DNA of 64,000 bases from Dromiciops gliroides (lineage: Eukaryota > Chordata > Mammalia > Microbiotheria > Microbiotheriidae), in the NCBI RefSeq assembly GCF_019393635.1, contig NC_057863.1:640947806-641011805 (forward strand), written 5' to 3'. Below the pieces are notes generated by a model. That model did no database searches and was not told the DNA's origin. It saw only the letters and a list, made by a program, of their open reading frames with translations. The stretch's first letter is position 1; the number at the start of each line of letters is the position of its first letter. Shown here in pieces: positions 17,627-56,602 of the stretch. The position numbers and the translations under genes are program-made.

Positions 17627-17711
17627 TTATCTTCCCACGTTGCTTAGTCCAGGCACTGAGGGGGCCCTAACGTTCAGGTTTTCATAGATGCAAGCGGAAT
17701 CCTCGCTCATC
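17627..17711 (-). CDS. SHP paralogue, exon 15 (last coding)
   Basis: Follows acceptor 'cttccccaccag'. It encodes M568 to R594 with [12 protein letters not shown], equivalent to the SHP-2 tail around Y580 (EDSARVYENV), then TAA at 17,627-17,629. IYENL is a YxN motif of the kind GRB2 binds and is closer to SHP-1's VYENL. Confidence 0.9.
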
Positions 17712-19259
17712 CTGGTGGGGAAGAAAGTGGAGTCTCAGACCTAAGGAGGGGAAGTGCTTCTGGGCAGACCAGGAGGCTAGCAGCGCCCCCTCCTTCAGCC
17801 CCCACCCAACCACCAAATCTATTTTCCCGTATGTTTTGGGGGTTCCTACCAGTCGTCCCCTATCAAGTCTCCCCAAGAGACAACTTAGCTCTTGAGGGGT
17901 GGGGGTGGGGTCACTCAAAAGCCCCAGGCTACCCAATAGGGTCCATAGTCATCTGCTGCTCCCTGGTGGGAAGCTTGCCTAATGCTGGGGGTGGTGCAGG
18001 ATGGGCCGGTGTACCGGCTCCCTCTCCCTTAGTGCCCCCATGGACAGCCTAGGCCCAAAACACACCATCCACTTCTGAAGTCCCATTCATTGCGCCCATC
18101 CCCCCACCATGTCTCATGCCTGTATTCCCCTCAGGTTCCCCCATCCCCATAAGCCACTTTGCCCCCATCCCCCGCCCCCACTCACACAGACTGTGCCCTG
18201 GAGGGTGATAGCCCTTTGCTTCTGGAGGGGTCCGAGGGAGGGGAGCGAATGTTTAGATATTCCCGCTCCTTCCGCCTATTGCGCTGCAAGATTGGGGGAG
18301 CAGAAGTCAGTATGGGGGATGCCAAGGGCAGGGAAAGGAGCTGGAATGGGGAGAGGAGACTGAATCCCAGGGTGGCAGTGTGGGGGATGGGGCCCATGGG
18401 GTCTAGAAGGGGCAGGGGGAGGGAACTGGGAGGGGTGGCCTGCTCCACCTGCTCCTCCTGCAGCCTCCACTGCTCTCCCTCAATATGCCTCTGCACGGCC
18501 ATGTAGACGAACTTATACTGGGCCTCCGTCTGCACCATCCCTGAGCGCTGCTGCCTAACCCGCTGGATGGTCCTAGGGATGTCAATATCACAGTCCAGGC
18601 CTGGGGGAACAAGAAGAGACACTTCTTCATGGACATGGGGTCTAGGGCCACAGAGTCCAGCCCTAGATGGCGGTGGGGGGGAGGCAGAAGAGACATGCAG
18701 TTCATGTGACATGGAAGGAACGCGGGAGTTACGGGAGTTATGGGGTCAAGCTGGAGGAAGGGAGTGCCCAGGGGCCAGCGGGCAGACCCCAACACGGGGT
18801 CCTAAGATCCTGCATTGATGAGAAGACTAGAGTCCTCTAACAGAAACCCCCTTGGTCCTGCCTTGTCCATTTCTCAGGCTCCCTCAGCATCATCCCTCCC
18901 ACCCCCTCCCAGGCACAGAAGATAAGCCAGCCAGCCCTACTACTCCAAACAAGCCAATCCTCCCTGCTCCCCAGGCCCCATCCCCATCCCCCATCCCCAT
19001 CCCCCTCATCCTCAGAGCATTCTTCCCCTCTCTCTTCCTCATTTCCCTCACAAACATTTTCACATCTCCCCAGTCTCTCTTTAAGCACTCAATAGGCAGT
19101 GGATAAAGCACCAGCTCTGGATTCAGGAGGACCTGAGTTCAAATCTGACATCAGACACTTGACACTTACTAGCTGTGTGACCCTGGGGAAGTCACTTAAC
19201 CCTCATTGTCCCACAGAAAGAAAGGAAGGAAGGAAGGAAGGAAGGAAGGAAGGAAGGAA

Positions 19260-19333
<74 letters not shown>

Positions 19334-22300
19334 GAAAGAAAGAAAGAAAGGAAGAAAGAAAGAATACTCAGTGGGCTGACCTGTGGAAAGAGGGATGAGC
19401 CTTAGGGGAAGGGAATAGGCATTTATATGGCACTTACTGTATACCAGGCACTGTTCTAAGTGCTTTAAAAACATTATCTCATTTGATCCTCACAACAACT
19501 CTGTGAGGTAGGTAGTATGACTGCCCCTATTTTACAAATGAGGAGACTGAGGTAGGCAGAAGTCAAGTGACTTGCCCAGGGTCACACAGCTATTAAGTGT
19601 CTGAGGTGAGATTTGAACTCAGGTTCACCCAACTTCAGAGTCAGTGCTCTATCCACTGTGCCACCTAGCTGCTCTGCTTATCAACTGGCACAGGTAGGAA
19701 AGGCCAGATATGGGATTCGAACCCACATCTTATACACTTCAGAACCAGTGATCTATTTCCTGGTCTTTTTCCATGCCATCTCTTCCCTCCCCGTACAATT
19801 AAACTAGAAAAAGTTGTCTACACATGAAGCCTCCACTTCCTTAAGACCCACTCTGTCTTGAAGCCATTCTGGCTTCTGTCCTCACCACTCCACTGCAATC
19901 CGATGACCTCTCAGAGGTCACCAATGACCTCCTATCCCAAATCTAACAACCCTTTCTCAGTCTTCATCCCCTTCGACCTTCCTACAAGCAATCAACACAG
20001 TAGAGCAACTAGGTGGCAACAAAGTACAGAGAACATTTGTTCTGGAGTCAGGAAGACTCATCTTCCTGAGTTCAAATCCAGCCTCAGACATTTAATAGCT
20101 GTGTGACCCTGAGCAAGTCACTTCACCCTGTTTGCCTCAGTTTCCTCACCTGTAAAATGAGCTGGAGAGGAAATGGTAAACCACTCCAGTCTCTCTGCCA
20201 AGAAAATTCCAAATGGGGTCATGAAGGGTAGTTCCCAACTGAAAATTACTGAACAACATCAAACTTTCCTAAAGTCTATCTATCCTCTCCTCCACTGATT
20301 TTAGAGATTCCCCCCAGTTCCCTTATAGCATCTCTAATAACTGTCCTCTCTCCTCCACTGCCTCATCTTCTCCCAGCCCTGTCACATGGCTGTTGTCCAA
20401 GGGTCACTTGTTGCTTCTCTTGACCGTCTTTCCCTCAGCAAACTCATTCAGATCCAAGCTAGAACTTTTCTAACCCTAATTCTGAACAATCTTCAGATCC
20501 TATCTGTAGTCAAACAGCGAGGTGGCTCAGTGGATAGAGCCCTGGGGCCAGCAGTCAGGAAGACCTGAGTTCAAATCTAGCCTCTCTAATGGTGTGACCT
20601 TGGGAAAGTCACTTGATTTCTGTCTGCCTCAGTTTCCTCATTTGTAAAGTAGGCATGGTAATACCACCTACCTCACAGAGTTGTGAGGATTAATATTTGT
20701 AAACCACTTTATAAACGTTAAAGCACTATAGGAACACTAGTTATAATGATGATGTAGGAGGGGGTCCTTGAAGAATTGGATCCTAAGTGGAAGAAGAGGA
20801 AGGGGAGCATTATGGGGATAAAGCTCAGACTGTGCAGGGGCATGGAGTCCATGAAGAATAGCAAGGAGGCTGGTTCTACTGCAGCCCCATCATTCCCCTT
20901 GTCCCCTTCATTCTCCCCATCTTGTATCCAGTCCCCAAGCCCTGCCAAGTTCCATCTCCATCCCTCCTACCCACAATCCTTCCTGTCTGGTTTTTTTTTT
21001 TTTTTGGGTGGGGGGGGAATGAGGGTTAAGTGACTTGCCCAGGGTCACACAGCTAGTAAGTGTCAAGTGTCTGATGCCGAATTTGAACTCAGGTCCTCCT
21101 GACTCTAGGGCCAGTGCTCTATCCACTGCGCCACCTGGCTGCCCCCTTTCTGTCTGTTTCTATAAGCATCATCTTGGTCCAAGCCCTTCTTACTGCCCAA
21201 GAGACTGTTTCCATCAATTCCTTCTCTCTCCTCTCTGATCTCTCCTTCACGCAGCTGCCACAAACACCTCTCTCAAGGATGAATATGGTCGTGTCCCTCC
21301 TCCCCATGGTCTTCCCGTGGCTCCCTATGGTCTCCAACAAAAGTTCAAATTCTTTAGGCCAGCATTCAGAGCTTTCCATAGCCTGAAACCACTCTGTCTC
21401 GCTCCAGCCAACCTGAATTTCTGTCTATTCCCTGAACGCACCTGCAATCTCTCACTTCTGTGCATTTGTCCACCAGGTTCCCTATGCCTGGAATGGTCTT
21501 CCTCGCTCACTCTACCTGTGAAAGTCCAGCTCATCCTTTAAAGCCCAACTCAAATGCCACCTTCTCCAGGGAGCTCCCCATGATCTCCTTGCCTTGGTAA
21601 TGGCTTCACCCTTGACACACTTATTTTGAAGTCTTGCCAGTTTATCCGTGTTCATGTCATGTCCCCCACTAGACTTCAAGCCCAGGGAGGGCAGGGATCT
21701 TGTTTTATCTAAACTGTGTGTCTCGACAAACAGTAGGAGCTTGGTAAATGCTGATGGACTGACAGGAAGCTTGGGACCTGGAGAGGACGTGGGAGTGTTG
21801 GGAACAGCCATACCCTGCCTTCGAATGGTATCCACCAGGATGTCGATGACGATGATGGTACCCGTGCGTCCAATGCCAGCACTGGGGATAGAAGCGAGTC
21901 ACCCCAGTGGGGCTTGTGGGTGGCCTCTCCACCCCCACCCCCACTCCCACCAATCCCTTGGGTCGAGCCTTCCCCAGCAGAGCCCAGGGGCAACAATACC
22001 TGCAGTGCACGACAATGGGACCAGAGCCTGGCACGCTGCTCTGGGCTTGGTTCACCTGGTCCAGGAAGCTGAGAACACCACCGGGCTCCGTGGGAACCCC
22101 GTGGTCTGGCCAGCTGAAGTACTGGTAGTGTGCGACCTTCCGCGGTAGCTCCTCCTGAGCCGAGGCAAGGGAAAGGAGAGTCTGAACTTTGCATTTAATC
22201 TAGGTGTGTGTTTCTGGCCCAATAGGAAGAAATTGATGCCAAAAGTGAATTGACCTGACCAAGGTCATTGGTCTTTCTTGGATTCCCAATGCTTAGCATC

Positions 22301-25300
22301 CTACCTGGCCCCCAATAAGAAATCTTTAATAAATGCTTGTTGACTGACTGATGGATTGATATGATTACTAAGTGTCAGATGTGGGATTTGAACCCAGATA
22401 CTCTGATCTCAGGACTCTTTCTAGAATGTAAGCTTCTTAAGGGCAGGAACTGTCTTGATTCTGTCTCTGTCCCCCTTCTCCCCTACCTCCTAGCACAGTG
22501 CCAGGAATATAGTGATCAATGTTCATTAACTCAAGCTAAATTGAGAATCAGGAGCATCGAGAGAGGGATGAGAAGCTCTTGGGATGAAGCTGCCTTTCTC
22601 CTCCCTCAACTGTCACCCCTCCACTTTTGTCTTCTGGGTGGGCACTGCCCACTAGCTAGGCTGGCTCCTAGGCCTCTGAGCCCCCTCCCAAACCACAGCA
22701 GGGAAGATCCTCCCCCTTCTTTCCCAATGTTCCCCCACACTGTGGCCCAGAGGCTCACCCTGTCCGTGCGCCCCATCTCCAGCTCTCTCACATAGTATCC
22801 TTGGGCCTCCCTTTCTGTTACATGACGCACACGCACACAACCATAGTCCTTGGTGCAATGCTGATCTGGCCAGTAGCGGAAACACTTGTTCTGGGGGGTT
22901 AGGGAGAGACAGTGACGCCCAGCCCTGTTGGGAAATGTGACCCAACCTCCCCCCGCCACGCCCACCAAAGTCTGCCCCTAACCCGTCCTCTCTCCATCTC
23001 CTTGGTTGTCATGACGATGACATGGGTGTTCTCTTGGTACACCATGGCCCAGAAGTCATTGACGGTGGTCTGTAAGCAGCCCTGGGTCGCTATGTACACC
23101 TTCGAAGGTTCCTGGCTCTGCCCATCCTCAGGGATGCTCTGAAAGAGGGGGTGGACAGACTGCTCAGAGACCATGGTCACAGTCATTCTTGCTGCTAGCA
23201 GCCCCCTGGGCCTGGGGCTCCTCAGGCTCCTAACCTCCTAGGGGGGAGGTGGGAAGAGGAGAGCAGAGCCCTGGGACAGGGATGGCCGAGCAGGAGCCCA
23301 AAGAGTCTTCCTTCCAGATCAAAGGGAACAGCCTGGTGGAGATGGCCGCTGGGAAAACCGTGAATTGAGCCTTCAGCAGACAACAGAACGTGCAAAGGGG
23401 CAGGAGATAGATGAGTTTGTGGATGAGGATGTGGGCAGTAGCCCCGGCATAGTCCCCTGTTTGGGGCTTTGCCCAGGAAGGGAACTTTGAAGTAAAGGGA
23501 GCCTTTGTTCTAAGACACTAGCAGAGAAAGCCTGCCAGCCCCTGACACCCCTGGGTCCCTGGGGCCATCTCTAAGGGTAACCAAGCTTAGAAATGGAAAG
23601 TGCCTTAGAGGCCATCGATTTTACAGAATGGGAAACTGAGGCACCAAGCTGTGAATGTGACTTGCCCAGGGTCACTGCTTCGTCACTTGCTTCAGTGAGC
23701 TGCCGAACTGGTCTTCAGACCCCGGCCATCAGACTCCGAATCCAATTTCCCTTCACTCCACACCACGATCTCTACCCACAGATTCCTTTGTATGAACAAG
23801 GTCGCAAGCGCGCGAGCTGACAAGTCCCTTACAGGGGCTTCTAGCCTTATCCTTCCACACTGTCCACCCATTTTACAGAGGAGAAAAGTGATGCCCATTG
23901 AGGTCAAAAGTCACAAAGTGAGGGGGCAGCTCGGTGGCGCAGTGGATAAAGCACCAGCCCTGGATTCAGGAGGACCTGAGTTCAAATCCAGCCTCAGACA
24001 CTTGACACTTACTAGCTGTGTGACCCTGGGCAAGTCACTTAACCCCCAAAGTCACAAAGTGAGTAGGTAGCCAAGCCAGGCCTCTAACTCCAAAGTTAAT
24101 ATTCTTTTCACTAGACACACATGACCACACCAAAAGCTGCATGCGTGGGTCACATCTGCATTCGAACACACACACACACACCTTAATGTAGTTCGCATTA
24201 ATGTAGTCAGCACCTGGCACACTCCCATCCACATCTCGAAGGGTAACACGGGTGGTGTCAACTGTAGGAGGTAGGGAGACAAAAGGGAGAAAGGAGCAGG
24301 AAGGGTTGGGAGCTGGGGAGAAAAGAGGCCCAGGACTCCTAGGGCACTGGACACCAGGACACAGGGTGCCCTGGTCCCCTCCCTCCTTTGACCTGCCTGA
24401 GGTTGAAGAGCAGAGGAAACTGTGGTAGACAGAGGGGGGATGTGAATGCCTGAGGAATGTGTGTGGAAGAGTATGGGAGAGTGTGTTGTGGGGGCAGGGG
24501 AAAAGTGATGGAATCAGTTAGCATAGGGCATGAAGGATTCATAGAACTACCCACTGGAGGGAGGTAAGGAAGAAAGAAATCCAGGACTAGAAAGGGCTCT
24601 CTCCCACCCCCAGACTCCCACCCCGAGATCCTCACAGGGAAGAATGTTCTTGTAGCGGTTCTTGGCTTTGTTCTCAGGGCGCTGCCCCTCCTTTCGAGGG
24701 TACAAAAGTTTACATTCCTGCTGCTGCAGCATCTGGAAAAATAAAATCCACTCTGGCTCAGTCCTACAGCTCAGCCTTGGTCCCATCCCCTGCCCCACAG
24801 CTCAGCCCTGGTTCCAATCCTCTGTTTCAGTTCTGACACCAGACCTGACTCATGCTCCATAGCTCTCAGCCTTGGCACTGACCTTAGAACCCAACCCTAG
24901 CTAATCCTAACCCTACCCAGCCCCCAGATCCAAAACCTCTTCCTCTTAGGTCTCATACCCCATCTCGGACCAAGATCATCCTTATCCCTTCTTTGTTCCA
25001 GGCTCAGAGAGACTCAGTTCCATAATCAAGACCATAATGCCAGGCAAGGACAGAGCCAGGATGAGACCCTAGGAGCAGCAGTTCCTCTAGTGCTGGGTCT
25101 GGGGGCTTTAGGGGCCAAGATTAGGGGCAGCAAGCAGATCTCCTGCCCTTACCTCAAACTCCTCCCAGAATCCTTGCTTGGCCTTCTCACTCTGGTCTGC
25201 CATCTTGGTGAGCTCTCGGACACGGTTCTCAATGTTGGCAGCATTTATCCTGGTGGCATTAAATGGCTGGCAGAAAGAACGGGGTCAGGGTCAGCTCTGC

Positions 25301-28300
25301 CAGTCCTCTGCTTCCCCCAGACCTAGCTCTTCCAATCCTCTCCTCCCCATCTACCCCAGCACTAGGTAGACGGGAGCTGTAGTAAAAACTCATCCAGAGA
25401 AACTTGGATGTTTAGTTGCAATTGATCAAGGCTTCTAGACTCCCCCAGCCCCACTTGCCCATCCTGCACTAAACAGCCAAACATATATTCCTAAAGCACA
25501 GGTCTGACCATGTCACTCCACTACTCCAAAGCCTTCTGCGGCTCCCCATTGCCTCTGTGATGAAAAGAAACCTGCCCAAGCCTGACATTTTTTTTAAGGT
25601 CAATGAGGGTTAAGTGGCTTGCCCAGGGTCACACAGCTAGTAAGTGTCAAGTGTTTGAGGTCTGATTTGAACTCAGGGCTTCCTGAATCCAGGGCCAGTG
25701 CTCTGTCCACTGCGCCACCTAGTTGCCCCCCCAAGCCTGGCATTTAAAGCCTTCCACAATCTGGCCACCACCCACCTTCCCAGGCTCATGGCATGGCTCC
25801 CCTTCACACACTCTGGGTTCTAGACAAACAGATCTACCAGCTGTTCCTTTGACTCTGCATGCCATGTCTTAACCTAGATTCCCTTCTCTATCTCTTAGAA
25901 GTCCTTCATCCTTCGGGGCTCAGGTGCCACCTCCTATAGGAAGCCTTCCTGGATCCCTCCCAGTCCTTAGTATTAATAAGTCAATCAATCAATTGATCTC
26001 AGATTGCCTCATATTGATTTATCTGTCTACAATTTTATCCCTCAGGATAAAAGTCCCTTCTTGTCTTTCCCTAGTAGCCACATAGAAAATGCTTGTTAAA
26101 TGAAACTAAATTGATTATGGACATTCTACTAATCCTGTGGCTCTACCACCCGGGCTTCCTAGGACTTTCTCACCCTCTCTCAAAGAGTTTCTTTTGATTA
26201 GAATGTAAGCACCTTGAGGGCAGGGGATGATTGGGTTTCATCTTGTATCTGTGATCCCTAGCATCTAGGAGCTCCAACCCCTTTGGATCCCAGAACCTCT
26301 GAGCTGGGAGGGACCTGAAAGACCAACTCCTCTACTCCATGCCAGAAAGAGAAACTGGCACCACCCGCCCAACTGCCAACATGCCCAGAACGTAGTGACT
26401 CTATGTGGAGCAGGAAGCCCATTGCATGCTGGGACATCTCTCATTGCTGGGAAGTATTCTCTGACATCCAGCCTGCATCTGCCCCTCTGGAGCTCCTCTT
26501 CCCCAACCTTTACAGCCCAACCCCCAATGGCTCCTAGCTTTCTGCCTACTGAGGCCAAGCAGAATGGGGCTAATCCAGCTTTTACATGCTAGAAAAGGCT
26601 GGATGGCCACTCAATAGGTGTGTTGTAGTGGGGATGAATGGGTTAGATTAGATGACCTCAGAGGTGCCTGCCACGCTAACATTCTGAGCTTCTGGGATAG
26701 CCGAATACTTTGTTGTCATGCCTGACTCTTCATGATCCCGTTTGGGGCTTTCTTGGCAAAGATACTGGAGTGGTTTGCCATTTCCCTCTCCAGCTCATTT
26801 TACAGACGAGGAAACTGAGGCAAACAGGGTTAAGTGACTTGCCCAAGGTCACATGGCTAGTAAGTGTCTGAGGCCAGATTTGAACAAAGTTCTTCCCGAC
26901 TAAAGGCCTGATGTTCTGCCACTGTGCTACCACTGTCATAGCTCAATACTAGAACAATTATAACCCGCCTTGCTCCCCCAAACAAGTTTCTTCTTCTCCA
27001 GGCTAAATCCAGGCACCATAAATCTCTGAGCTAAAAAGGACCTTGTGGGTCACCAGGTTCAAGCCCTCACTTTGCAGATGAGGAAAGTGAGTCCCAGCAT
27101 TCCTGGGTCCTTGCTCCAGGTTGCCTTCCTCATCCTGGCTGTGGATGCCAGAGCCCCTCCCCTTGGATGGGGAAGGGGCCCTCTAATCCCTGAGGGTCGG
27201 TCCTGAGGCTCAGGGGCACTGGTAGGTACCTGTTTGAGATGCACGACGGCCCCTGATTTCTCCACCATGGGGTTCTTCTTATAGTGCTCCACAAGGTCTG
27301 TCAGGGTGTCGAAGCGTTCCCCTCCACCCACATCATACTTGCCGTCCACCTGGGGAGAAGGTGTGTGAGTGGGCGTCCCCAGTGCCCTCCCCCGCCCACT
27401 CTCCCTGCCCCCCACAGCCAGATGCCACACCTGGAAGCGGATCATGACGTGGGTAACCCGGGGCCGGCGGTCACCGCCATCCAGCTTGTCTAGCTCCTGG
27501 GTGAGGACAGAGAGAACAAAGTCCCCGGGCTTGCTCTGACTCTCTCGTACCAAGAAGCTCCCCGGCTTGCCTTTCTCTGTCAGCAGCTTCTCGGCCTCCT
27601 TGCCAAAGAGATGTCCGTGGTACCACCTGGTCGGGGTAAAGAGGGTGGGACAAGTGATAAGCCCAGGAGAATGATGGGATTCCCCTGTGCCAACTCAGGT
27701 TAAGGGCTACCCACAGACAGATACACCAAGATGAGGGGTTACTCTGGGAGCCTACCTAAGGCGGGACATGGATTTCCTCCTCATCTCTGAGATCACAGGA
27801 TCTGAAGAGTTGGGTGACCTCGGCAGTCACCTTGTCCAACCCGAACCCACAAAGGAATCCCTTCTCTAACATCCTTGACAAGCAATCATCCAGCCTTTGC
27901 TCGTAGACCTCCAGGGACGGGGAGCTCACTACCTCTGGAGGCAGCCTCCTCTACTCTGGGAGAACTCAAATGGCTAGGGAGTTTTTCCCTGACATCAAAC
28001 CTACATTCACCTCTTGGACCCTTCCTCCCACTGCTCCCGGACCCTCTGGGTTTCACACGCCAGCTGTTAAGGTGCTCAAACCCGCCGTGGCATCCTCCCC
28101 CAAGCATTCTCACTGAAGCCTGGACTGTCTTAGTTCCTTTTACTAAGTGGGAACAAAATCACTTAATGCAGAGCATCTTGCCAGCCCCAGACCACACTTT
28201 GCATCCACATACCTCAAACATGTTGCCATCTGCCCGGCTGGTACGTTCATAACCCCACCCCCCATTTCTATTTCAGGAATCAAACCATCACTACCATCTA

Positions 28301-37300: not shown

Positions 37301-40300
37301 GCTCAGGAGAGAGCTCAATCCTCTCCCAGATGCTGAGTAATCTGGCTCAAGAGGAGACCCCACCCCATGCATTGTCCCTCCTCCTCTCTGAGGAGCCAGG
37401 GAGTGGAGAGGGAGTCCCAGGTGTCCTGGCCAAAGACCCCGGAACACTTCGGCTCCTGTGCAGGCTCCCAGGCCTCCTGGCCTCCAGGCCTAAGGGTGCT
37501 GGTCTCCTAGGGTGGGGCAGATCCTTCCCAGTGACCTTGGTACAGAGAAGCATCTTCCCTCCCACACACCCCTTACTCCCAGGCTCTGAGCACATCTCCT
37601 GGACACACATATAAATATTTGGCGACTCCAGGAGCCACAGGCCTCTATCAGCACGCACATCTGTCTGCAGCTGAAGAAGTGGGATCTGGGAGGGGTGGGG
37701 GAGGGGAGTCTGACATTCACCTTGCCTTTGACCTTTGCTAGATGAAAAGAAGAGTCTTCCCCTAGGCCTCTGCCCTGATGATTCCCAGCCCTTATCCCCA
37801 TCTGGTCCCAGAGTCTCTTTCCCCTTAGAATCCTAGCCCTCCCTTCCAGCTGAGAAAGTAAAGCTCAGCCCCCTTGCCCCCACACCCCCACTCCCAGAGG
37901 GGCCCAGGCTTCCTTACCTGACCGAGAGGGTAAAGTCACCCGGGTTGCTTTTGCTTGGCCGGGCCAGAAAGCTGCCATGTACGCCTCGGGTGAGGAGGAG
38001 CTTCTCAGCCTCCAGCCCACTGATGTTGGGATGAAACCACCTGAGGAAGAAAGAGATGGCACACATAGTCAGCCCTGCCCAGCCCGAACTCCACCAGGAT
38101 AATGGGGGCCCTGTTCTAGCAAATGGGATGGCCATGAACCACAGGCCCAGTGTCCAGAGATCTAGTCCTGACTGGTCTTCCATCACCCCCACCACATACA
38201 GGGAACTGGGCAAGCCCCCCAAGTCCCCCCAACATACACCTGGATACTCAAAGACCCCCCATTGCTCCCCAAATACACTGGGAGGGGGCAGCTAGGTGGC
38301 TCAGTGGATAAAACACCGGCCCTGGATTCAGGAGGACCCGAGTTCAAGTCAGGCCTCAGACACTTGACACTTACTAGCTGTGTGACCCTGGGGAAGTCAC
38401 TTAACTCACATTGCCCCACGAAAAAAAAAATACACTGGGAATGAAAGCCCCCCTCATATCCCCCAACACATTTGGATACTCATTGACCCCATCGCTGCCC
38501 CCAGCATACATTGGGATTAAAGTCGTCCAACACATACCTGGATACTGCCCCCCATACACCCAAATGCATACTAGGGCCAAATAGCCCTATGCCATTGCCA
38601 CCCCAATATGCACCTGGATGCTGACTTATTTTCCCCATTATACCCCTCTATACAACTAGAGAATGAGGTCCCTTGTTTGGCCCCCAAACTATCCATATTC
38701 CCTCCTCCCAATGTTCCCAGTGGGAGGCTGATTTGGGGGAGGAGCTGAAGTGGGGGGAACTGTCTGGTCTCACAGAATACAGGCAAAGAGATTTGCTTTC
38801 AGCCTAGTAGCCCCCAGAGTAGAGTCTCTTTAGGGCAGGAACTTGCCCAGGGTCATACAACTAGTAAGTGTCAAGTGTCTGAGGCCAGATTTGAACTCAG
38901 GTCCTCCTGAATCTAGGGCCAGTACTTTATCCACTGTGCCACCTAGCTGCCCCTGGGGCAGGAATTCTTTTTTTTTTTTTTTTTGCGGGGCAATGAGGGT
39001 TAAGTGACTTGCCCAGGGTCACACAGCTAGTAAGTGTTAAATGTCTGAGGCCAGATTTGAACTCAGGTAGTCCTAAATCCAGGGACGGTGCTTTAACCAC
39101 TGTACCACCTAGCTGCCCCCATGGGGCAGGAATTCTTAACCTTTGTTGTACCCCTTCTAAAAATCATGTTTTTCAATCCATCAAATTCAGAGAATTACAA
39201 AGGTAGCCAATCATATCAAAATAGAATTATCAAAATATTTTTCAGCTAAAGTTCACAGATCCCAGTTTAAGAACCCCTGCTTTAGGAAATTTTACCCTGA
39301 GCCCTTCCAGACACGACCTGCTGGGGAGTATACCTCCCCATTAGAGCAGAAAGGGAGGGATGTGGCAGATACCAAGCTGGAGAAAATAGTGATACTCAGT
39401 GGTGAGCTCCCATCTTTCCCAGGAAAAGGTAAACTTTGACATCTAGCTAGAAAAGGGACTTGTGAACTCTACCCCCCACACCTAGGAAAAACAAGGGGGG
39501 AAGCCCCGATGAACTTTTGCAATAGCCTCTTCATTGATCCAACTCCATTCCAATTCATCCCCCATTCAGCCCGTTACTGACTCTCCTATTAGTTCCTATT
39601 AGCTCCAGGATCAAATACAAACTCTTCTCTCTTCTCTGACACAAGCTGACTTGGCCTGTTTCCAACTTTATTTCACATCATTCCACTCCAGACACCCTAT
39701 GGTGCCTCCAAAGGAGCCTTCTGTATGTATTTTTTTTTGGTAGGGCAATGAGGGTTAAGTGACTTGCCCAGGGTCACACAGCTAGTAAGCGTCACGTGTC
39801 TGAGATCGGACTTGAACTCAGGTCCTCCTGAATCCAGGGCCGGTGCTTTATCCACTGTGCCACCTAGCTGTCCCCCAAGGCAGCCTTCTATAAATTCTTC
39901 ACATGTGACCCCTCCATCCCCCTTCTCATGCCTAGAACACCCTCCCTCCTCACCCTGGCCTTAGCTCCAATACCACTTCCCACATAAAGCCTTCCAAATC
40001 CCCCAGCAGGTAGTGCCTCCTTCATCCCACCCCAGAACAATTACCATGTAACTGTTTTCAATATACTTTTACATGTATGTGTTTCCTGCCTCAAAAGGAT
40101 ATAAACTGCTTGAAGGCAAGGAATCTTCTAGTTTTTACTTTGTAACCCCCACACAGAGCCTAGCACACAAATTAGGCAATCAGGAAGTGCTACTAGATGG
40201 ATTTGCCCACCTCCCACATAGCCCTCATGCTGTCCAGCTCTGTCATTATAACACTGTAGCCTATGACTGGCAATTAACTGGCAATCGAAACATTGTAACC

Positions 40301-42181: not shown

Positions 42182-42251
<70 letters not shown>

Positions 42252-43831
42252 AGACAGACAGAAAGACTTGCTAGGCAAGAGTCCCTATCACAAAGAACAA
42301 AGCATTTGGAAGCTGCCACCCTTTTTCCCCAATGAGGAAGCTCCACTGCCCCAGTAAACTGTCAGCTCCTTCAGGGCAGGGATGATATTTTCCTGTGTCT
42401 TTGCACCCCCTGGTGCCTACCTTGCACATAGTAGGTACTTACTAGCTTTGCATGCCCTTGGAGACTATCAAGTCCATCCCCCCCCCCCATTTTGCAGAGG
42501 AGTAAACTGAGACCAATAAATTGGAGTGACTTGCCCAGGGTCACATGGCTTGTGAGTATCTAAGGTGGGCTGGGAAAGCCACGTCTTCCTGACTCTGAGC
42601 CCACTGCCCTCTTCAGGATCTTTTTTCCAGGGTAATGCCAGGCATGCTCAGGAAGGCCCACTTAGAATAGGAAAAAGGAACAGGGAAGGGGAAGGCTGGA
42701 GAGGCAGGTTGGGATTGGATCTTGGGGAGCCTCGAATGCCAAGCTAAAGAGTTTGGATTTTATCCTACAAGCAATGGGGAGCCATATAAGGGTTTTGAGG
42801 AGGACAGTAGTTCTTGAGGCAGATCTCAAGCTCCTGGCACATAGTGACAACTTAATAAATATTTGCTGACTGACTTACTGACTGATGCTAAGCTGCCTAG
42901 GTGGCAAAGGGAGAAACCAGACCTGGGGAGCTCAGTTTGGAGGCTATCACAATAGTCCAGAAGAATGGTAATGAGTGCCTGGACTCAGGTAGGGGACATG
43001 AGAGTGGACAGGATGGGTAGATTCAAGAGATTGAGATAGAGGGGGAAGAATGGACACCACCTGGCAATAGATGAAAGACCAAGAGAAACAGACAGAGACA
43101 GAGAGACAGACAGAGAGACAGAAAGACGGTGACACAGAGACAGAAACAGAGACAGAGACAGAGACACAGAAAGACAGAAACAGAGACAGAGACAAAGACA
43201 GAGAGAGACAGAAAGATAGAGACACAGAGAGACAGAAACCGAGACAGAGGCAGGGCGGGGGGGGGGGGGGGGGGCAATGACCAGCAGAGACATATAGGGA
43301 TGGAGACAAAGACACAGTGAGAGGGTGAGCTGTTTCCATCACAGAGACTCCCTCCCTGCCCAGCATCCGCCTCCATTGTGGAAAATGCTGAGTGAGGGGC
43401 TCTGGCAAGGCTGAGTGAGGGCCCCACTTGGGCCCTGGAGTCAGGGTGTGGGGGAGGGAGCTGGGCCAGAGCTGTGGTTTTGGGGGAGGGGGGCCAGCCA
43501 GGTTGTTTTTTCCTTTGGTAACTTCTATTCAGATTTTCCATCCCCCCCCCCCACCCCAGCATCTCACTCTCAAGAGTGGCTCAGGTCTTATCAAAGCGGA
43601 AATCTCCTCAAGGGGCCAGATTGGACCCCAGGTCCCCATGAGCTTTGTGGCCAGCCTGGGCAAGAATAAACTCCAGGGTCTCCCCCTCCCTTTCACCTTC
43701 GTCCTTCCCGGGCCAGGAGGCCCGATCTGGAAGGAGCTGAGGCCTTCTGTGCTGACCTCAGGCTGGGCTGGGGAAAACCAGAGGCATCTATCCCTGACCT
43801 AGTCACTGCAGTCTGTCCTGGAGCAGGGGAA

Positions 43832-43876
<45 letters not shown>

Positions 43877-52800: not shown

Positions 52801-55800
52801 GCACCTAGTGTTTGCCAGGCATTGTGCCACACATTGATGATACCAAAGGAGGAGGGCAAAAACAGCGCCTGCCCTCAAGGAACTTGAAATCTAACTTACA
52901 AATAAGCCATAGCCAGAAGCCAGATGATCAGGAGAGAGGAGGCACTGAAATTAAGTGGGCTGGGGAAAGGCCTCCTGGTCATTGGCAGCCTGATCAATGA
53001 CCATCCCGTGGGTGGTTAGTATGGGACCAGGTCACTGTGCACATCTCCTGCCTCTGTTTAACATGGGGGGAGTTGGAGAAAGGCAAGCACCCGTCAGGGG
53101 TGGCTCATCCTGGGAGGCTGCTTCAGGCAGGAGAAATAGCTGATTAATTAGAAGGAGGGACACAGGAACACGGAAATGAAGTATCTCAGGTTCTAGATGC
53201 AAAGCTGGAAGGGACTTCGAAAGTTGGCTATCTTAACCCCCCATTTTACAGATGAAGAAACTGAGGCCCCCAAAGTAAAGTGATTTGCCCAAGGGAACAC
53301 AGTAACTAGTCACTCAGACAGCAGAGGTGAGTTGTGAGCGTGGGCCTCTTAGCTCCAAGAGTCTACAATCCCAGAGCTCAGGTTCCTATGGGATTTTAAA
53401 GTTTGTCCATGGCTTTCCATATAGTAGAGATAGTGTCTGGAATGGAGTCAGGGAGAACCAAGTTTGAATCCAGTCTTGGACACTTACAAGTTACTTCATG
53501 TCTGCCTGCATCAGTTTCCTTAATGGTAAAGTGGGGGAAATAATAGCACCTAACACCCCCAACCCCCCCCCCGTTGTTGTGAGGATCAAAAGAGATATTT
53601 GTAAAGCCCTTAACATAGTGTCTGGTATACAGTAGGTGTTTTATATATATATATATATATACATATATACATATATATATACACACACACACATATACAT
53701 ACATACACACATGTTATACATAGGTATTATATACACACACAGGTATTATATACACATGTATTGTATGTGTATATGTGCTAGTTATTATTATTATAATTAT
53801 TAATCTCGCGTGATTTCCTACTCCAGTCCTGGGAGACAAAGACTACATGTGATTATTGTCTCCATTTTACAGATGAGAAAACTGAGGCTAAACAGGGGAA
53901 AGTATCTGAGGAAGGATTCAAACCCAGTGTTCTAAACGCCAAGTCCAACACTCGATCAACTGGTACGTGAGAGTTTTTAGAAACAGCACAGAGAACACTA
54001 GATTTGGAGTCAGGAAAAGCTGGTTGGAATCCCAGTTCCATAAGGCAAGTGACTTTAACCCCTCTCCACCTCAGTTTCCCCATCTGTCAAATGAAGAGTT
54101 CGGACAACATGATCAAGTTCTAAATTGGCTCCTAGGAGCCTCTTGAGAGACAGTGTTTGAGGGGCCAGAGAGATACAGTCTCTCTAACACAAAGCTGCTA
54201 GGGGGGCACGTGGCCCTAGTTCTTACCCTCCCACCTTCAGAGTGAGAACCCAGGCAGAAACAGCAGGAAGTGCCCAGTTCCTGCGAGAGTTTCCTTCTTC
54301 CCTCCCGCCTCAGACAGGAAGCTTTGGCCTAGGCCCAACATCTGTCCTGTCCTCCCCCATTTCCTGTTGCTTTCATTCCCACCCACCCCCACCTCGACCC
54401 AGGAGAACTTAGTAGGTGGGAAGGGGAAGGCATGCCCCCAGTCCAAGCCTCCAACCTCCATCCCCATCCTGAAAAAACTAAATGAGGTGGGAGCTAAGAA
54501 AAGGACCCAGAATTCCCTGTGCCACATTTCCTATACTGACCACTGAGCAATGCAGGATACAGGACATGAAGGGACGGTATGAGAGCTGGTATCTCAAGGG
54601 AAGTGGGGCGTGGGGAGTGGGACATGGGCTCTCCCTTCCCCAGGGAGCTCAAGTCTCCTCACTCAGGAAGTAGGATCAGAAGCTGTGAGGGGCAGTATGG
54701 GACAGAGAAAAGAATATGGGTCACCCACTACTTTCTCCTAGAGGCTTTTCCCAGTTCCTCCAATAGCTAAAGGCATCCCCTTTAAGGCTACCCTCCACCT
54801 CTCAATGCATCTCATTTGTACCTAGTTATATACCCATTAGATTGTAAGCTCCTTGAGGGCAGGGACCTTTTGCTTTTCTTTGTATCTCTAGAGTTTAGAA
54901 CAGTGCTCGGCACACAGCAAGAGTTTAATAAATGCTTGGCAACTGGAATAAGAGGAGCTCAGCTTAAACACTTGCCCAGTCATTTACCACCTGTCTGACT
55001 TCGGGCAATGGTAACCTCACTTTATCTGTAAACAAGGGGTGGGGTGGACTATGGAATCTCTAAGGTGCTTTTCAGTTCTAAATTCAACAGTCTGCTGGAG
55101 ATATCCCCAAGCATGCTCTCAGCACCCCCTCCTACACCCCATGTGCACAATTAGCTCCAGGATCAAACAACTCCTCAGGGAACAAATATGTCCATTCCCA
55201 CTTGGGAAGACAGATCCAGAGACCCAGTCCTTGTTAAAGAGATGGGGGAAGGACTCCCATCCGCACCACCACCACCAAAGAGTGCTAGGGAAACTTCTCT
55301 GGACCCAAAAGAAGATAGGGGAAAAGCTCGAAGGCCTCTTGTGGCTGATCAATGTCAGTGAGGGATTGGCACTGAGGTCTGAGTTCAGATGGACCCAAAG
55401 AACCTGAGCAGGCCGGAGGGCTAGGAGTCCCAACAGGGTTCTGGAGAGGGAGCAGCATAGTGACCAAAGCAGCAGGCAGAGAAACCAACTTGGTAGGAAC
55501 TCCACCCCCTAGATGTGAGCGCCCTGGGCCAAAGCCCCGTTCACCCAGGGCTAGGTAAAGTTCTGACCCTGAGCACTGGGAGGAGCCTATGGGCAGAGAA
55601 GAGCTTCCTGGCTAGCCCTCCCCCCACCGCTACCTCCAGGGGTTGGAAGTCACACCCCGCTGATGTGAAGGCCGCTCCCGGTAGAGGGTTCCTGTTGGTG
55701 CCTTGAGCTCAAGCATCCTCTAAGGGCCAGTGATTCAGTCTCAGGACGAAGGCGAGCTAAGGAGATCGAGGGTCCCTGGGGCCAGCCCCGAGGAGGTGAG

Positions 55801-56602
55801 TCAGCGCCCCAGGGACTGGAGGGAGGGGTTGGGTGGGAAGAAGGGAGAGGCTATCTCGTCAGCTGGGGGGGGGCGGTTATTGGCCAAGGGGTCTCGGAGC
55901 GTCCTGTGGTAGGTGCGCAGGTTGGGCGCATCTCCCAAATCCCAGCTCCGCTGAGGCAGCAACGGCGGCTACGCGAGGGCGGACCGGCCCGCCCAGGGCT
56001 ACTCAGCTCAAGGAAACCAGAGTGTTTCCTTTCTGACGGGCGGTGAGTCAGACTGCCCTGGGAACCTCGGCGGGCTGGGAACCCAGGAGTCCTGGGCACC
56101 GGGGCAGCCCCCGAAGGGGCCGAGTCCAAGTCGGGGACGGGGGCGAAGTAGAACCCGAAGTGAGAAAGGCGTAGACCGAGCGCAATGTAGACACCCCCTC
56201 CTCACTAGAGCGGCCGCTCCTCCAGAGGCCGAGAGGAGTCGGCTCCCTGACTCTCTGCCCGCCCCCACCACCTCCACGAATGCGCCCACGGTAGCAAGAG
56301 AGTGGACGTGGGAGGAGAGAGGGAGACAAATTCCCCGCGCCGGCCCATTTCCCGAAGCCGACAAATCGAGGCTCGCGGGACCAGCCCGGCGGTGGCCTGG
56401 AGTGTTTGTTTCGCGGCTGGGACCGGTCGATTTCAGAAGACAGATCAGGGTCTTTGGGGGCCCCCTCCCCGCCCCGAAGGCACCACCTTCAATGATTCGG
56501 ATCGCGGCCCCAGCCCACCCTCCGCGAGCTCGGGCTGGTGGAGACCCAGCCCAGGCAAGGCAAGGGAAGGTCGCGACGAGAAGCTCACCTGCGGGAAGTC
56601 AT
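17627..56602 (-). CDS. Third SHP-type SH2-domain protein tyrosine phosphatase (15 exons, intact)
   Basis: Joined exons give 1,785 coding bases, i.e. 594 residues (human SHP-2 has 593, SHP-1 has 595). The N-SH2 domain (about 6-102) has its phosphotyrosine-binding R32. The C-SH2 domain (about 112-216) has R138. The PTP domain (about 247-525) keeps Y281 in KNRY, the WPD loop D426, the signature [10 protein letters not shown] with nucleophile C460 and R466, and Q507. The tail carries Y543 (EYLNI) and Y576 (IYENL). Autoinhibition residues D61, A72 and E76 of SHP-2 are all present, so the usual closed/open switch is expected. Exons 2, 3, 6, 7, 8, 10, 11, 12 and 13 have exactly the PTPN11 lengths. 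Exons 4 and 5 are one codon longer and exon 9 one shorter. The protein would dephosphorylate phosphotyrosine in the cytosol after docking on ITIM-like motifs. Much of the N half reads as SHP-2, but '[20 protein letters not shown]' in exon 11 is SHP-1-like. No stop, shift or lost splice site was found. The - strand gene is convergent with RNF223. I saw no clear poly(A) signal before the antisense SINE at 16.1 kb. Confidence 0.93.
18186..18283 (-). CDS. SHP paralogue, exon 14
   Basis: 98 bases after acceptor 'aatcttgcag', ending in phase 2 at the strong donor GTGAGT. Encodes [14 protein letters not shown] and a short Ser/Pro stretch. Y543 corresponds to SHP-2 Y542 (EYTNI) and SHP-1's EYGNI. It is 15 bases shorter than PTPN11 exon 14 and lacks the PPCTPTPP proline-rich piece. 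Confidence 0.9.
18449..18600 (-). CDS. SHP paralogue, exon 13
   Basis: 152 bases, the same as PTPN11 exon 13. Encodes [25 protein letters not shown] (Q507 of the Q-loop) and the final PTP helix ending LQEEQ. Its donor GTGGAG is weak. Confidence 0.95.
19095..19214 (+). repeat. 5'-truncated tRNA-derived marsupial SINE
   Basis: Starts within the head at 'ggcagtggataaagcac' and runs into the GGAA/GAAA repeat that follows. Confidence 0.88.
19215..19365 (+). repeat. GGAA/GAAA microsatellite
   Basis: About ten AAGG units followed by about 24 AAAG units. A pure purine tract in intron 12, derived from the SINE tail. Confidence 0.95.
19410..19675 (-). repeat. Composite MIR/CORE-like SINE, antisense
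   Basis: Contains 'attatctcatttgatcctca', 'ttttacaaatgaggagactg' and 'gtgccacctagctgctctgc': a tRNA-like head joined to a CORE-type 3' part, read in reverse. Confidence 0.75.
20003..20255 (+). repeat. Long marsupial SINE with 3' module
   Basis: Diverged copy: 'gagcaactaggtggcaacaa' head, 'ggaaatggtaaaccactcca' and 'ctgccaagaaaattccaaat' module. Confidence 0.82.
20515..20745 (+). repeat. Old MIR/THER-like SINE
   Basis: 'gcgaggtggctcagtggata' to 'cagtttcctcatttgtaaag', then a CORE-type part 'cctcacagagttgtgaggat' and 'ccactttataaacgttaaag'. Confidence 0.7.
20991..21146 (-). repeat. tRNA-derived marsupial SINE, antisense
   Basis: Complete antisense copy with a T16 tail. Imperfect duplication cttcctgtctgg and ctttctgtctgt. 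Confidence 0.92.
21814..21881 (-). CDS. SHP paralogue, exon 12 (catalytic P-loop)
   Basis: 68 bases, as in PTPN11. Completes the signature (C)SAGIGRTG and continues [15 protein letters not shown]466 of the CX5R loop is present. Acceptor 'tctatccccag', donor GTATGG. Confidence 0.95.
22000..22154 (-). CDS. SHP paralogue, exon 11 (WPD loop and catalytic cysteine)
   Basis: 155 bases, as in PTPN11, ending in phase 2 after HC. Encodes [13 protein letters not shown], with the general acid D426, and GPIVVHC with C460. Wording here is SHP-1-like. Donor GTATTG is weak. Confidence 0.95.
22250..22545 (+). repeat. L2-type LINE 3' ends (two pieces)
   Basis: 'aatctttaataaatgcttgt' with TTGACTGACTGA and, after it, 'agaatgtaagcttcttaagg' with 'cctagcacagtgccaggaat'. 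Confidence 0.6.
22759..22890 (-). CDS. SHP paralogue, exon 10
   Basis: 132 bases, as in PTPN11. Encodes [10 protein letters not shown]...[11 protein letters not shown]...YYVRELEM, matching the SKCVKYWPDE...KEYGVMRVRNV segment of SHP-2. Donor GTGAGC. Confidence 0.94.
22983..23138 (-). CDS. SHP paralogue, exon 9
   Basis: 156 bases, one codon shorter than PTPN11. Encodes [20 protein letters not shown], then [13 protein letters not shown]. Strongly conserved PTP core. Donor GTTAGG is unusual. Confidence 0.94.
23923..24047 (+). repeat. tRNA-derived marsupial SINE
   Basis: Complete head and body, minimal tail. Perfect duplication AAAGTCACAAAGTGAG at 23,907-23,922 and 24,048-24,063. It lies in intron 8, about 140 bases from exon 8. 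Confidence 0.94.
24182..24261 (-). CDS. SHP paralogue, exon 8
   Basis: 80 bases, as in PTPN11. Encodes [20 protein letters not shown] then NANYIK, where SHP-1 has DYINANYIK and SHP-2 DYINANIIM. The donor lies at the start of a GT repeat. Confidence 0.93.
24636..24732 (-). CDS. SHP paralogue, exon 7
   Basis: 97 bases, as in PTPN11. Encodes [20 protein letters not shown] then KNRYKNILP, the pTyr-recognition loop (Y281). Closely SHP-2-like. Donor GTGAGG. Confidence 0.95.
25153..25266 (-). CDS. SHP paralogue, exon 6
   Basis: 114 bases, as in PTPN11. Encodes [20 protein letters not shown] then KQGFWEEFE, the linker from C-SH2 into the PTP domain. Donor GTAAGG. Confidence 0.95.
25480..26110 (+). 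repeat. L2-clade LINE 3' region, split by a SINE
   Basis: 'aaagcacaggtctgaccatg', 'ccttctgcggctccccattg', then after the SINE 'aaagccttccacaatctggc', 'tataggaagccttcctggat' and 'agaaaatgcttgttaaatga'. This is the usual order of L2 3' sequence. Confidence 0.75.
25591..25730 (-). repeat. tRNA-derived marsupial SINE, antisense
   Basis: Complete antisense copy inserted in the L2 fragment. Duplication CCAAGCCTGRCATTT at 25,576-25,590 and 25,731-25,745 with one mismatch. Confidence 0.93.
26703..26937 (-). repeat. Long marsupial SINE, antisense
   Basis: 'tttcttggcaaagatactgg', 'tggtttgccatttccctctc' then the tRNA-like body to 'gccactgtgctaccactg'. Confidence 0.87.
27230..27349 (-). CDS. SHP paralogue, exon 5
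   Basis: 120 bases, one codon more than PTPN11. Encodes [20 protein letters not shown] then [11 protein letters not shown], the end of C-SH2, nearly identical to SHP-2. Only 81 bases of intron separate it from exon 4. Confidence 0.95.
27431..27626 (-). CDS. SHP paralogue, exon 4 (C-SH2)
   Basis: 196 bases, one codon more than PTPN11. Encodes [39 protein letters not shown] (R138) and, after a divergent loop, [10 protein letters not shown]. Donor GTGTGG is weak. Confidence 0.95.
28722..28860 (-). repeat. Decayed tRNA-derived SINE, antisense
   Basis: 'gggtccagggtcacagcagc', 'caaatttgaactcagatctt' and 'ctgtaccacatagttgctcc'. Several short losses relative to other copies. Confidence 0.75.
29073..29185 (+). 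repeat. 5'-truncated tRNA-derived marsupial SINE
   Basis: Starts at 'cggaggacctgagttcaaat' and ends in about 20 A residues. Confidence 0.88.
29190..29440 (+). repeat. L2-type LINE 3' end
   Basis: Clear: 'ctccaggaagcctttcctaa', 'gtgccttccctctgttgatt', 'gtgagctccctgagggcagg', 'cagtaggcatttaataaatg' and TTGA/CTGA repeats. Confidence 0.88.
30560..32000 (+). repeat. Ancient unclassified repeat, large decayed copy
   Basis: Purine-rich decayed sequence whose opening ('gaggtttaagtctggaaagg', 'ccaaggagtctgtgttttat', 'gattctagcagctgtatgct') resembles a repeat piece at 42.68-43.03 kb. Family not identified. It is interrupted by a SINE. Confidence 0.4.
31066..31210 (+). repeat. tRNA-derived marsupial SINE
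   Basis: Complete copy. Duplication CATCAAGAGA at 31,056-31,065 and 31,211-31,220. Confidence 0.93.
32055..32250 (+). repeat. GAA/GGA polypurine tract
   Basis: Long purine-only stretch including about 17 uninterrupted AAG units near 32,155-32,205, in intron 3. Confidence 0.93.
33445..33583 (+). repeat. tRNA-derived marsupial SINE
   Basis: Copy with a short internal loss, inserted in an older SINE (33,275-33,690). Duplication AAAAGACTTGGG at 33,433-33,444 and 33,584-33,595. Confidence 0.93.
34320..34476 (-). repeat. tRNA-derived marsupial SINE, antisense
   Basis: Complete antisense copy. Duplication CTCAGTCTTTCTT at 34,307-34,319 and 34,477-34,489. Confidence 0.94.
34515..34735 (+). repeat. 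Old MIR/THER-like SINE
   Basis: 'gcctggtatagtccaaaggg', 'cagatcctgccttagtaatt' and 'cagtttcctcatctgtaaaa' plus a CORE-type end. Confidence 0.7.
35133..35327 (-). CDS. SHP paralogue, exon 3 (N-SH2)
   Basis: 195 bases, as in PTPN11. Encodes [20 protein letters not shown] then [11 protein letters not shown] and [11 protein letters not shown]. Holds D61, A72 and E76, the residues that plug the active site in SHP-2. Donor GTAAGT. Confidence 0.96.
35450..35875 (+). repeat. L2-type LINE 3' end
   Basis: 'ctcatacctggaatgctgtc', 'caccttctccaggaagcctt', 'gtaagctccctgagggcagg', 'ttaataaatgtttattgatt', then a second tail copy 'gtaggcacttaataaatgtt'. It lies about 120 bases from exon 3. Confidence 0.88.
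36250..36475 (+). repeat. Old MIR/THER-like SINE
   Basis: 'gagggctgggcttagagtca', 'tgggttcaaatcttgtttca' and 'cagtctcctcatctttaaaa' with a CORE-type tail. The 1.4 kb from here to exon 2 holds no repeat that I recognise. Confidence 0.7.
37918..38040 (-). CDS. SHP paralogue, exon 2 (N-SH2)
   Basis: 123 bases, as in PTPN11. Encodes [19 protein letters not shown] then [20 protein letters not shown]. It differs from SHP-2 at only about four of 41 residues. R32 is present. Donor GTAAGG. Confidence 0.96.
38284..38428 (+). repeat. tRNA-derived marsupial SINE
   Basis: Complete copy. Duplication AATACACTGGGA at 38,272-38,283 and 38,429-38,440. About 240 bases upstream of exon 2. Confidence 0.93.
38834..38953 (-). 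repeat. tRNA-derived marsupial SINE, antisense, 3'-shortened
   Basis: Body from 'cttgcccagggtcatacaac' to 'tgccacctagctgcccc'. Confidence 0.87.
38970..39122 (-). repeat. tRNA-derived marsupial SINE, antisense
   Basis: Complete. Duplication GGGGCAGGAATTCTT at 38,955-38,969 and 39,123-39,137, next to the preceding copy. Confidence 0.94.
39130..39290 (+). mobile_element. Decayed hAT-like DNA element
   Basis: Begins 'ggaattcttaacctttgttg' and ends 'agtttaagaacccctgcttt'. These ends are inverted repeats of the 'ggttcttaa' type common to small mammalian hAT elements. Confidence 0.5.
39520..40200 (+). repeat. L2-type LINE 3' region, split by a SINE
   Basis: 'gcaatagcctcttcattgat', 'tcaaatacaaactcttctct', 'catgcctagaacaccctccc' and 'ataaactgcttgaaggcaag' in L2 order. 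Confidence 0.7.
39730..39877 (-). repeat. tRNA-derived marsupial SINE, antisense
   Basis: Complete antisense copy with a T9 tail, inside the L2 fragment. Confidence 0.92.
40540..40760 (-). repeat. Old MIR/CORE-like SINE, antisense
   Basis: 'tttacaaaacactttattga', 'tttgatcctcacaataatcc' and 'gatttgcccagggtcatgca'. Confidence 0.7.
41554..41744 (+). mobile_element. Non-autonomous hAT-like element, complete copy
   Basis: About 190 bp bounded by inverted ends, left 'gcttcttaaactgtggg' and right 'agtttaagaagccctg'. Flanks atgtagac and ctctaggc loosely fit the nTCTAGAn 8-bp target preference of hAT elements. No transposase frame, so it is a MITE-like passenger. Confidence 0.75.
41888..42250 (+). 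repeat. GA-rich polypurine tract
   Basis: Over 300 bp almost free of pyrimidines, ending in a perfect GA run of about 66 bp (42,184-42,250). Confidence 0.95.
42680..43035 (+). repeat. Ancient unclassified repeat, second copy
   Basis: 'gaatgccaagctaaagagtt', 'tttatcctacaagcaatggg' and 'ggctatcacaatagtccaga'. The middle (42,820-42,890) is an inserted L2-type tail ('cttaataaatatttgctgac'). Confidence 0.5.
43080..43274 (+). repeat. GACAGA-type repeat ending in G18
   Basis: Imperfect AGACAG units followed by 18 consecutive G residues at 43,257-43,274. Confidence 0.93.
43838..43873 (+). repeat. GT microsatellite
   Basis: About 18 uninterrupted TG units. Confidence 0.95.
43964..44125 (+). repeat. 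tRNA-derived marsupial SINE
   Basis: Complete copy with a CAAACCAAAAAAA tail. Short duplication AGATTGA on both sides. Confidence 0.92.
44225..44510 (+). repeat. Old MIR/THER-like SINE pieces
   Basis: Two tandem diverged segments: 'gagctacaagacctgggttc' to 'ctttcagctccaggcctgtg', then 'gggaccttgggcaaatctct' to 'aagccccttccagctctgta'. Confidence 0.7.
47560..47880. promoter_or_regulatory. CpG-richer, repeat-free patch in intron 1
   Basis: Contains GC-box-like strings (gggggcggggagtgggcg) and about ten CpG within 220 bp, in a SINE-free interval. It could be an enhancer or alternative promoter, but I see no start codon with a phase-2 donor. Functional status unknown. Confidence 0.3.
48560..48970 (+). 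repeat. GA-rich polypurine tract
   Basis: About 400 bp of GAGA/GGGA/GAAA units with very few pyrimidines. Serine/leucine-rich frames on the other strand are artefacts of it. Confidence 0.93.
48985..49205 (-). repeat. Old MIR/CORE-like SINE, antisense
   Basis: 'ttattaggcaccttctttct', 'catttcatcctcacaacagc' and 'gtgacttgcccagggtcata'. Confidence 0.7.
49950..50045 (-). repeat. Partial tRNA-derived marsupial SINE, antisense
   Basis: T12 tail and body to 'aggcaggatttgaactgaat'. The head portion is missing. Confidence 0.87.
52572..52723 (+). repeat. tRNA-derived marsupial SINE
   Basis: Complete copy. Perfect duplication AAGAGTACTGTGTCA at 52,557-52,571 and 52,724-52,738. Confidence 0.94.
53640..53765 (+). 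repeat. TA/CA microsatellite
   Basis: AT, ACAT and ACAC units alternate. Grown from the end of an older SINE ending 'cagtaggtgttttatatata'. Confidence 0.9.
54715..54945 (+). repeat. L2-type LINE 3' end
   Basis: 'ccattagattgtaagctcct', 'gcttttctttgtatctctag' and 'gtttaataaatgcttggcaa'. Confidence 0.8.
56589..56602 (-). CDS. SHP paralogue, exon 1 coding part
   Basis: Fourteen bases, ATG ACT TCC CGC AG, then donor GTGAGC. They give MTSR(R), identical to the SHP-2 start, and exactly the 14-base coding length and phase 2 of PTPN11 exon 1. It sits in a CpG island 18.5 kb upstream of exon 2. The exact match in length, phase and peptide makes the link convincing despite the short exon. Confidence 0.88.

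Follow-up and report, generated by a model that had tools for sequence, protein, structure and literature searches.

The window, a 64,000-nucleotide (64-kb) stretch of Dromiciops gliroides DNA, carries a third SHP phosphatase gene on its minus strand. Splicing, domain content and similarity give it a coding span of 17627..56602, with 15 coding exons running from 56602 down to 17627 and a product of 594 aa. The exons were first located by similarity to human SHP-1, and splice borders were picked by hand with similarity as the guide. In this spliced reading, 14 of 14 introns have GT/AG borders and the frame is unbroken across 594 codons (1785 nt including the stop). The initial annotation had reported the same span, the 15 exons, the GT/AG borders and the 594-codon frame, and splicing reproduced all of them; the strand was absent from it. 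At this base composition, 594 codons would stay open by chance with a probability of ~9e-11, a rough figure because the exons were chosen. Among solved structures, the predicted protein is most similar to human SHP-2 (871.6 bits for its best chain), followed by SHP-1 (758.1 bits), and the SHP-2 score by itself puts the similarity far beyond chance.

All exons are given here on the minus strand. Coding exon 1 (56589..56602), defined by splicing, begins with the ATG and encodes MTSR. Similarity, splicing and residue alignment together define exon 2 (37918..38040; N-SH2, R32), exon 3 (35133..35327; end of N-SH2 and linker, with D61, A72 and E76), exon 4 (27431..27626; C-SH2, R138), exon 5 (27230..27349; end of C-SH2, with V212 at SHP-2 L210) and exon 7 (24636..24732; start of the PTP domain, with M255 at SHP-2 T253). 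Similarity and splicing place exon 6 (25153..25266; linker to the PTP domain) and three PTP exons, exon 8 (24182..24261; DYINANYIK), exon 9 (22983..23138) and exon 10 (22759..22890). The remaining exons are supported by splicing and residue alignment: exon 11 (22000..22154) holds the WPD loop (D426) and the catalytic C460, exon 12 (21814..21881) the PTP signature SAGIGRTG (R466), exon 13 (18449..18600) the end of the PTP domain (Q507 and Q511), exon 14 (18186..18283) tail tyrosine Y543 (REYLNI), and exon 15 (17627..17711) tail tyrosine Y576 (IYENL) and the stop. Exons 2-15 start in phases 2,2,2,0,0,0,1,0,0,0,2,1,0,2, and these phases are equal in PTPN11 and PTPN6 of the same genome when all three genes are spliced alike. 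The comparison covers exons 2-15, as exon 1 of PTPN11 and of PTPN6 was not located. The initial annotation's statement that the phases match PTPN11 throughout stands for exons 2-15.

A scan of CpG observed/expected in 500-bp windows stepped through the 64 kb identified a CpG-rich stretch over exon 1 (55501..57000), which is the probable promoter. The ratio reaches 0.78 over exon 1 against a median of 0.15, and the two highest-scoring 500-bp windows both fall within this stretch. No AATAAA or ATTAAA occurs within 2.6 kb past the stop codon, the first being at 2667. A short SINE motif, which we take to be marsupial, recurs densely in the window, in 26 places; 12 of these copies lie inside 17627-56602, all in introns.

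The gene sits between a RING-finger frame and AGRN. The former is a single-exon open frame on the plus strand (12641..13381), 246 aa from the first ATG. We assume it to be RNF223-like from human gene order, in which AGRN is followed by RNF223. By eye, this frame has a C-terminal hydrophobic segment. AGRN exons lie on the same strand as the SHP gene, 6-22 kb past the right end of the window (~70.2-86.5 kb in window coordinates). Among the frames listed in the 30 kb right of the window, one at 70.4-70.8 kb matches agrin (PDB 8s9p, E 2.1e-17), and three of four further frames match Kazal, EGF and laminin-G domains in Pfam.

In the predicted protein, Pfam identifies a pair of SH2 stretches and a single Y_phosphatase domain; N-SH2, C-SH2 and one classical PTP domain are all present, in the order of SHP phosphatases. 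Residues R32, R138, D425, C459, R465, Q506, Q510 and tail tyrosines 542 and 580 (SHP-2 numbering) are retained, together with the N-SH2 contact positions G60, D61, A72 and E76 and with S502. In its own numbering, the catalytic CX5R, the WPD Asp and the Q-loop Gln residues are C460, R466, D426, Q507 and Q511, and the C-tail tyrosines are Y543 and Y576. Alignment to SHP-2 thus confirmed both SH2 arginines, the WPD loop, the CX5R loop and both tail tyrosines, as initially claimed. Overall, 30 of 35 inspected SHP-2 positions are unchanged, including catalytic residues, the phosphate-binding Arg and N-SH2/PTP contacts; for most of these positions we presume the role held in SHP-2. The five that differ from human SHP-2 are F113Y, L210V, T218A, T253M and K492R. 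The Met at the T253 position is encoded in exon 7 (24636-24732, minus strand), and PTPN6 has Gly there. We take T253 of SHP-2 to be part of the SHP099 allosteric site, and judging from this residue the enzyme, with its natural Met, may differ in its response to allosteric inhibitors of SHP-2. R32, R138, I54, V170 and L210 are among the SHP positions named in PMC12151841. The Val at position 210 (V212 in the window protein) is a feature of SHP-2L, a third SHP gene discussed below; it is also present in PTPN6 of the same genome and in a fly corkscrew sequence of unverified letters and is therefore not exclusive to SHP-2L.

A 50-residue C-SH2 query was run against the assembly from which the window comes, 3.3 Gb in 17 contigs. 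The best three of 16 matches fell on the window gene, at C1:27.56 Mb (86%) and at C5:191.66 Mb (67%). The latter two correspond to a separate PTPN11 at C1:27523278-27564670 and a separate PTPN6 at C5:191653740-191671579. Over exons 2-15, this PTPN11 is identical to human SHP-2 at 579/588 positions (98.5%) and this PTPN6 to human SHP-1 at 539/592 (91.0%), the letters of human SHP-1 being verified and those of human SHP-2 partly checked by eye. The window protein is identical to the PTPN11 product at 399 of 575 positions (69.4%) and to the PTPN6 product at 345 of 575 (60.0%). Because both genes exist separately in this genome and the window protein is only 69% and 60% identical to them, the window gene is neither PTPN6 nor PTPN11 but an intact third member of the SHP family. 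The initial annotation had made this same claim, and the orthologues on C5 and C1 bear it out.

Two other accounts of the gene were rejected. One is that it is simply a diverged PTPN6 or PTPN11, orthologous one to one, and family similarity is all that speaks for this account. The 98.5% locus for PTPN11 sits on C1 and the 91.0% locus for PTPN6 on C5, leaving orthology to either gene with next to no probability. That the gene arose by recent duplication or is decaying is also very improbable: the introns are in place with canonical splice sites, there is no frame break or internal stop, the CpG-rich stretch is kept, and identity to the two paralogues is low. SHP-2L is, moreover, reported to be intact in many other jawed vertebrates (PMC12151841).

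A third SHP gene has already been described as SHP-2L in a 2025 paper in Front Immunol (PMC12151841), so the gene was correctly seen here and is not new. According to that paper, SHP-2L occurs in jawed vertebrates as far apart as sharks and mammals and was found in most of those investigated, zebrafish ptpn11b is identified with it, and glires and higher primates have lost it or carry it in inactivated form, human and mouse both being among the exceptions without a working copy. The initial annotation's statement that human and mouse have two SHP genes only is consistent with this for working copies. Its proposal of a third vertebrate paralogue kept functional here holds as to a third intact gene; this gene is neither marsupial-specific nor undescribed. 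The words marsupial, opossum and Monodelphis do not occur in the main text of PMC12151841. Going by titles and abstract openings, the literature search brought up nothing else about an ancient third SHP gene; PMC2933243 calls zebrafish ptpn11b a ptpn11 duplicate. In salmon, zebrafish and nurse shark spleen, SHP-2L transcripts are reported to be more T-cell-associated than those of SHP-1 or SHP-2, which does not hold for cattle (PMC12151841).

We consider the window gene to be, very probably, the Dromiciops orthologue of SHP-2L, the ancient third vertebrate SHP gene, and expect it to work like SHP-2. This identification rests on AGRN linkage and V212, the compared proteins being SHP-1, SHP-2 and corkscrew. 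The legend of the synteny figure in PMC12151841 names ATN1, RPL6 and AGRN as markers, and we infer from this legend alone that AGRN marks SHP-2L; the genes drawn are not necessarily neighbours. The window gene and SHP-2L (PMC12151841, PMC3988099) have in common that each is a third SHP gene whose chromosome is not that of SHP-1 or SHP-2, with AGRN linkage, Val at SHP-2 position 210, more than 60% identity to SHP-2 and YxN tail motifs; the likeness is drawn from these traits. The window gene differs in being a marsupial copy, from a group unnamed in the main text of PMC12151841, and in the SHP-1 ancestry suggested for it below. With SHP-2 it shares the phases of exons 2-15, most inspected positions and the higher identity, but SHP-2 has its own gene on C1, the window protein has Y113, V210, A218, M253 and R492 (SHP-2 numbering), and the two tails align poorly. 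With SHP-1 it shares the same exon 2-15 phases and 11 residues, whereas SHP-1 has its own gene on C5, a lower identity and a longer, basic tail.

We examined the ancestry of the gene in trees and in linkage. With fly corkscrew as the outgroup, a sequence whose letters are unverified, the maximum-likelihood tree joins the window protein to PTPN6 with support of 96/96 (SH-aLRT/ultrafast bootstrap). The branches measure 0.195 for the window protein, 0.585 for the PTPN6 stem and 0.508 for corkscrew. Of the gapless sites at which human and own-genome copies carry the same residue, 11 unite the window protein with PTPN6, 7 unite it with PTPN11 and 7 unite PTPN6 with PTPN11. The residues common to the window protein and PTPN6, as against SHP-2 and this corkscrew sequence, are H26, T82, Y113, L152, R167, R365, Q420, Y421, E432, I470 and E540. 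For the grouping of the window protein with PTPN11, the AU test gave P = 0.061 in the main run, 0.058 in a four-protein run (the genome's three proteins and corkscrew) and 0.053, 0.054, 0.048, 0.076 and 0.025 under five models over 510 gapless columns. The values fall below 0.05 in two of the five models, and the grouping is not rejected at 0.05 in five of the seven runs. A position outside both PTPN6 and PTPN11 had AU values of 0.029 (main run) and 0.014 (four-protein run) and was rejected at 0.05 in four of the five models, the exception being LG+C20+G4. Reciprocal rooting of N-SH2 against C-SH2, which does without the corkscrew letters, did not separate window+PTPN6 from window+PTPN11, with AU values of 0.61 versus 0.46 (LG+G4) and 0.58 versus 0.51 (JTT+G4).

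For linkage, CHD (PF08073) gave a total of three matches: C5:191.18, C3:630.19 and C4:234.61 Mb. Enolase (PF00113) has 94 matches in the genome, most of which we read as processed copies; loci in exon-like pieces that contain few stops occur at C5:191.62, at C3:626.62 and 626.69, and at C4:233.11 Mb, with one more split locus at C1:492.75 Mb. Of 24 synaptobrevin (PF00957) matches, three span profile positions 13-15 to 68-69 (C5:191.04, C3:627.96 and C4:234.92 Mb), and other loci of the family lie on C2, C4, C6 and elsewhere. With the enolase and VAMP loci hand-picked from these longer match lists, CHD/enolase/VAMP triads stand at C5 191.04-191.62 Mb, C3 626.6-630.2 Mb and C4 233.1-234.9 Mb. 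By human gene order, their members would bear names such as CHD4, CHD5, ENO1, ENO2, VAMP1 and VAMP3. On C5, PTPN6 maps to 191.65 Mb; on C3, the window gene maps to 640.97-641.00 Mb; PTPN11 is on C1. As a separate observation, the two multi-exon-like enolase loci on C3 (626622753-626626882 and 626685841-626690164) are ~60 kb apart, where human gene order would lead us to assume a single ENO1. Five one-block, stop-free enolase copies (C4:239144826, C4:50283801, C3:40746124, C3:286793605 and C2:39109939) match nearly all of Enolase_C, and amid many broken copies some of these may be working retrogenes.

Taking tree and linkage together, we favour as the likely origin that the window gene is the genome-duplication sister (ohnologue) of PTPN6, SHP-1 being the fast-diverging copy. 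The tree support, the count of shared sites and the low AU values for window+PTPN11 (0.025-0.076 over seven runs) argue for this origin, as do triads on C5 with PTPN6 and on C3 with the window gene while PTPN11 is on C1. Long-branch attraction should draw PTPN6 to the outgroup, and hence act against the grouping recovered. On the other side are the five AU runs that retain window+PTPN11, the SH2 rooting values, the unverified letters of the outgroup, the hand-picked enolase and VAMP loci, the 10.8-14.4 Mb between the window gene and the C3 triad members, and the higher overall identity to PTPN11. This last point also speaks for a different origin, a second SHP-2 whose common ancestor with SHP-2 is younger than the SHP-1 split, which we regard as considerably less probable. 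Identity to PTPN11 is highest in N-SH2 (86/98, versus 68/98 to PTPN6) and is also the greater in C-SH2 (80/105 versus 59/103); functional interchange occurs in zebrafish (PMC3988099), and the wording of PMC12151841 implies such an origin. However, ancestral residues shared by two slow-evolving proteins would also give high identity, and tree and linkage point the opposite way. Sisterhood with SHP-1 is compatible with the identification as SHP-2L, 'SHP-2-like' then fitting behaviour and not descent. We lean, somewhat less firmly, towards the view that SHP-2L is misnamed: that it is SHP-1's sister from the early vertebrate duplications, in a paralogous CHD/enolase/VAMP region, and has kept SHP-2-like ancestral behaviour, SHP-1 being fast-evolving and specialised.

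By analogy, from its conserved parts and from zebrafish data, the window protein should be an autoinhibited, SH2-recruited tyrosine phosphatase acting in an SHP-2-like manner. At rest, the N-SH2 domain would block the catalytic cleft. Binding of receptor or adaptor phosphotyrosine motifs (ITIM, ITSM and similar) to the tandem SH2 domains would open the enzyme and allow the Cys-based phosphatase to act, and the two tail tyrosines, once phosphorylated, would recruit partners. The presumed autoinhibition contacts D61, A72 and E76 are conserved at the level of sequence. Zebrafish Shp2b (ptpn11b) is an active phosphatase that is more active with D61G (PMC3988099), which bears indirectly on autoinhibition of Shp2b itself. 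Shp2b also rescues ptpn11a/ptpn11b double mutants, and ptpn11b single mutants are viable and fertile. Its 64% homology to human SHP2 (PMC3988099) compares with 69% identity of the window protein to PTPN11 of its own genome. We infer the activity, expression, partners and PD-1 recruitment of the protein in this animal.

Much SHP biology derives from mouse and human, lineages without a working SHP-2L (PMC12151841). An animal with all three SHP enzymes is a natural system for the role of the third in immune-checkpoint signalling. To what is known of SHP-2L, the present analysis adds a marsupial copy and tree and linkage evidence suggesting sisterhood with PTPN6. If that sisterhood is true, SHP-1 features would be derived and SHP-2-like behaviour ancestral, and the reading of zebrafish ptpn11b experiments would change. 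Mice and higher primates, lacking SHP-2L, would then display just the opposite ends of a system built of three enzymes.
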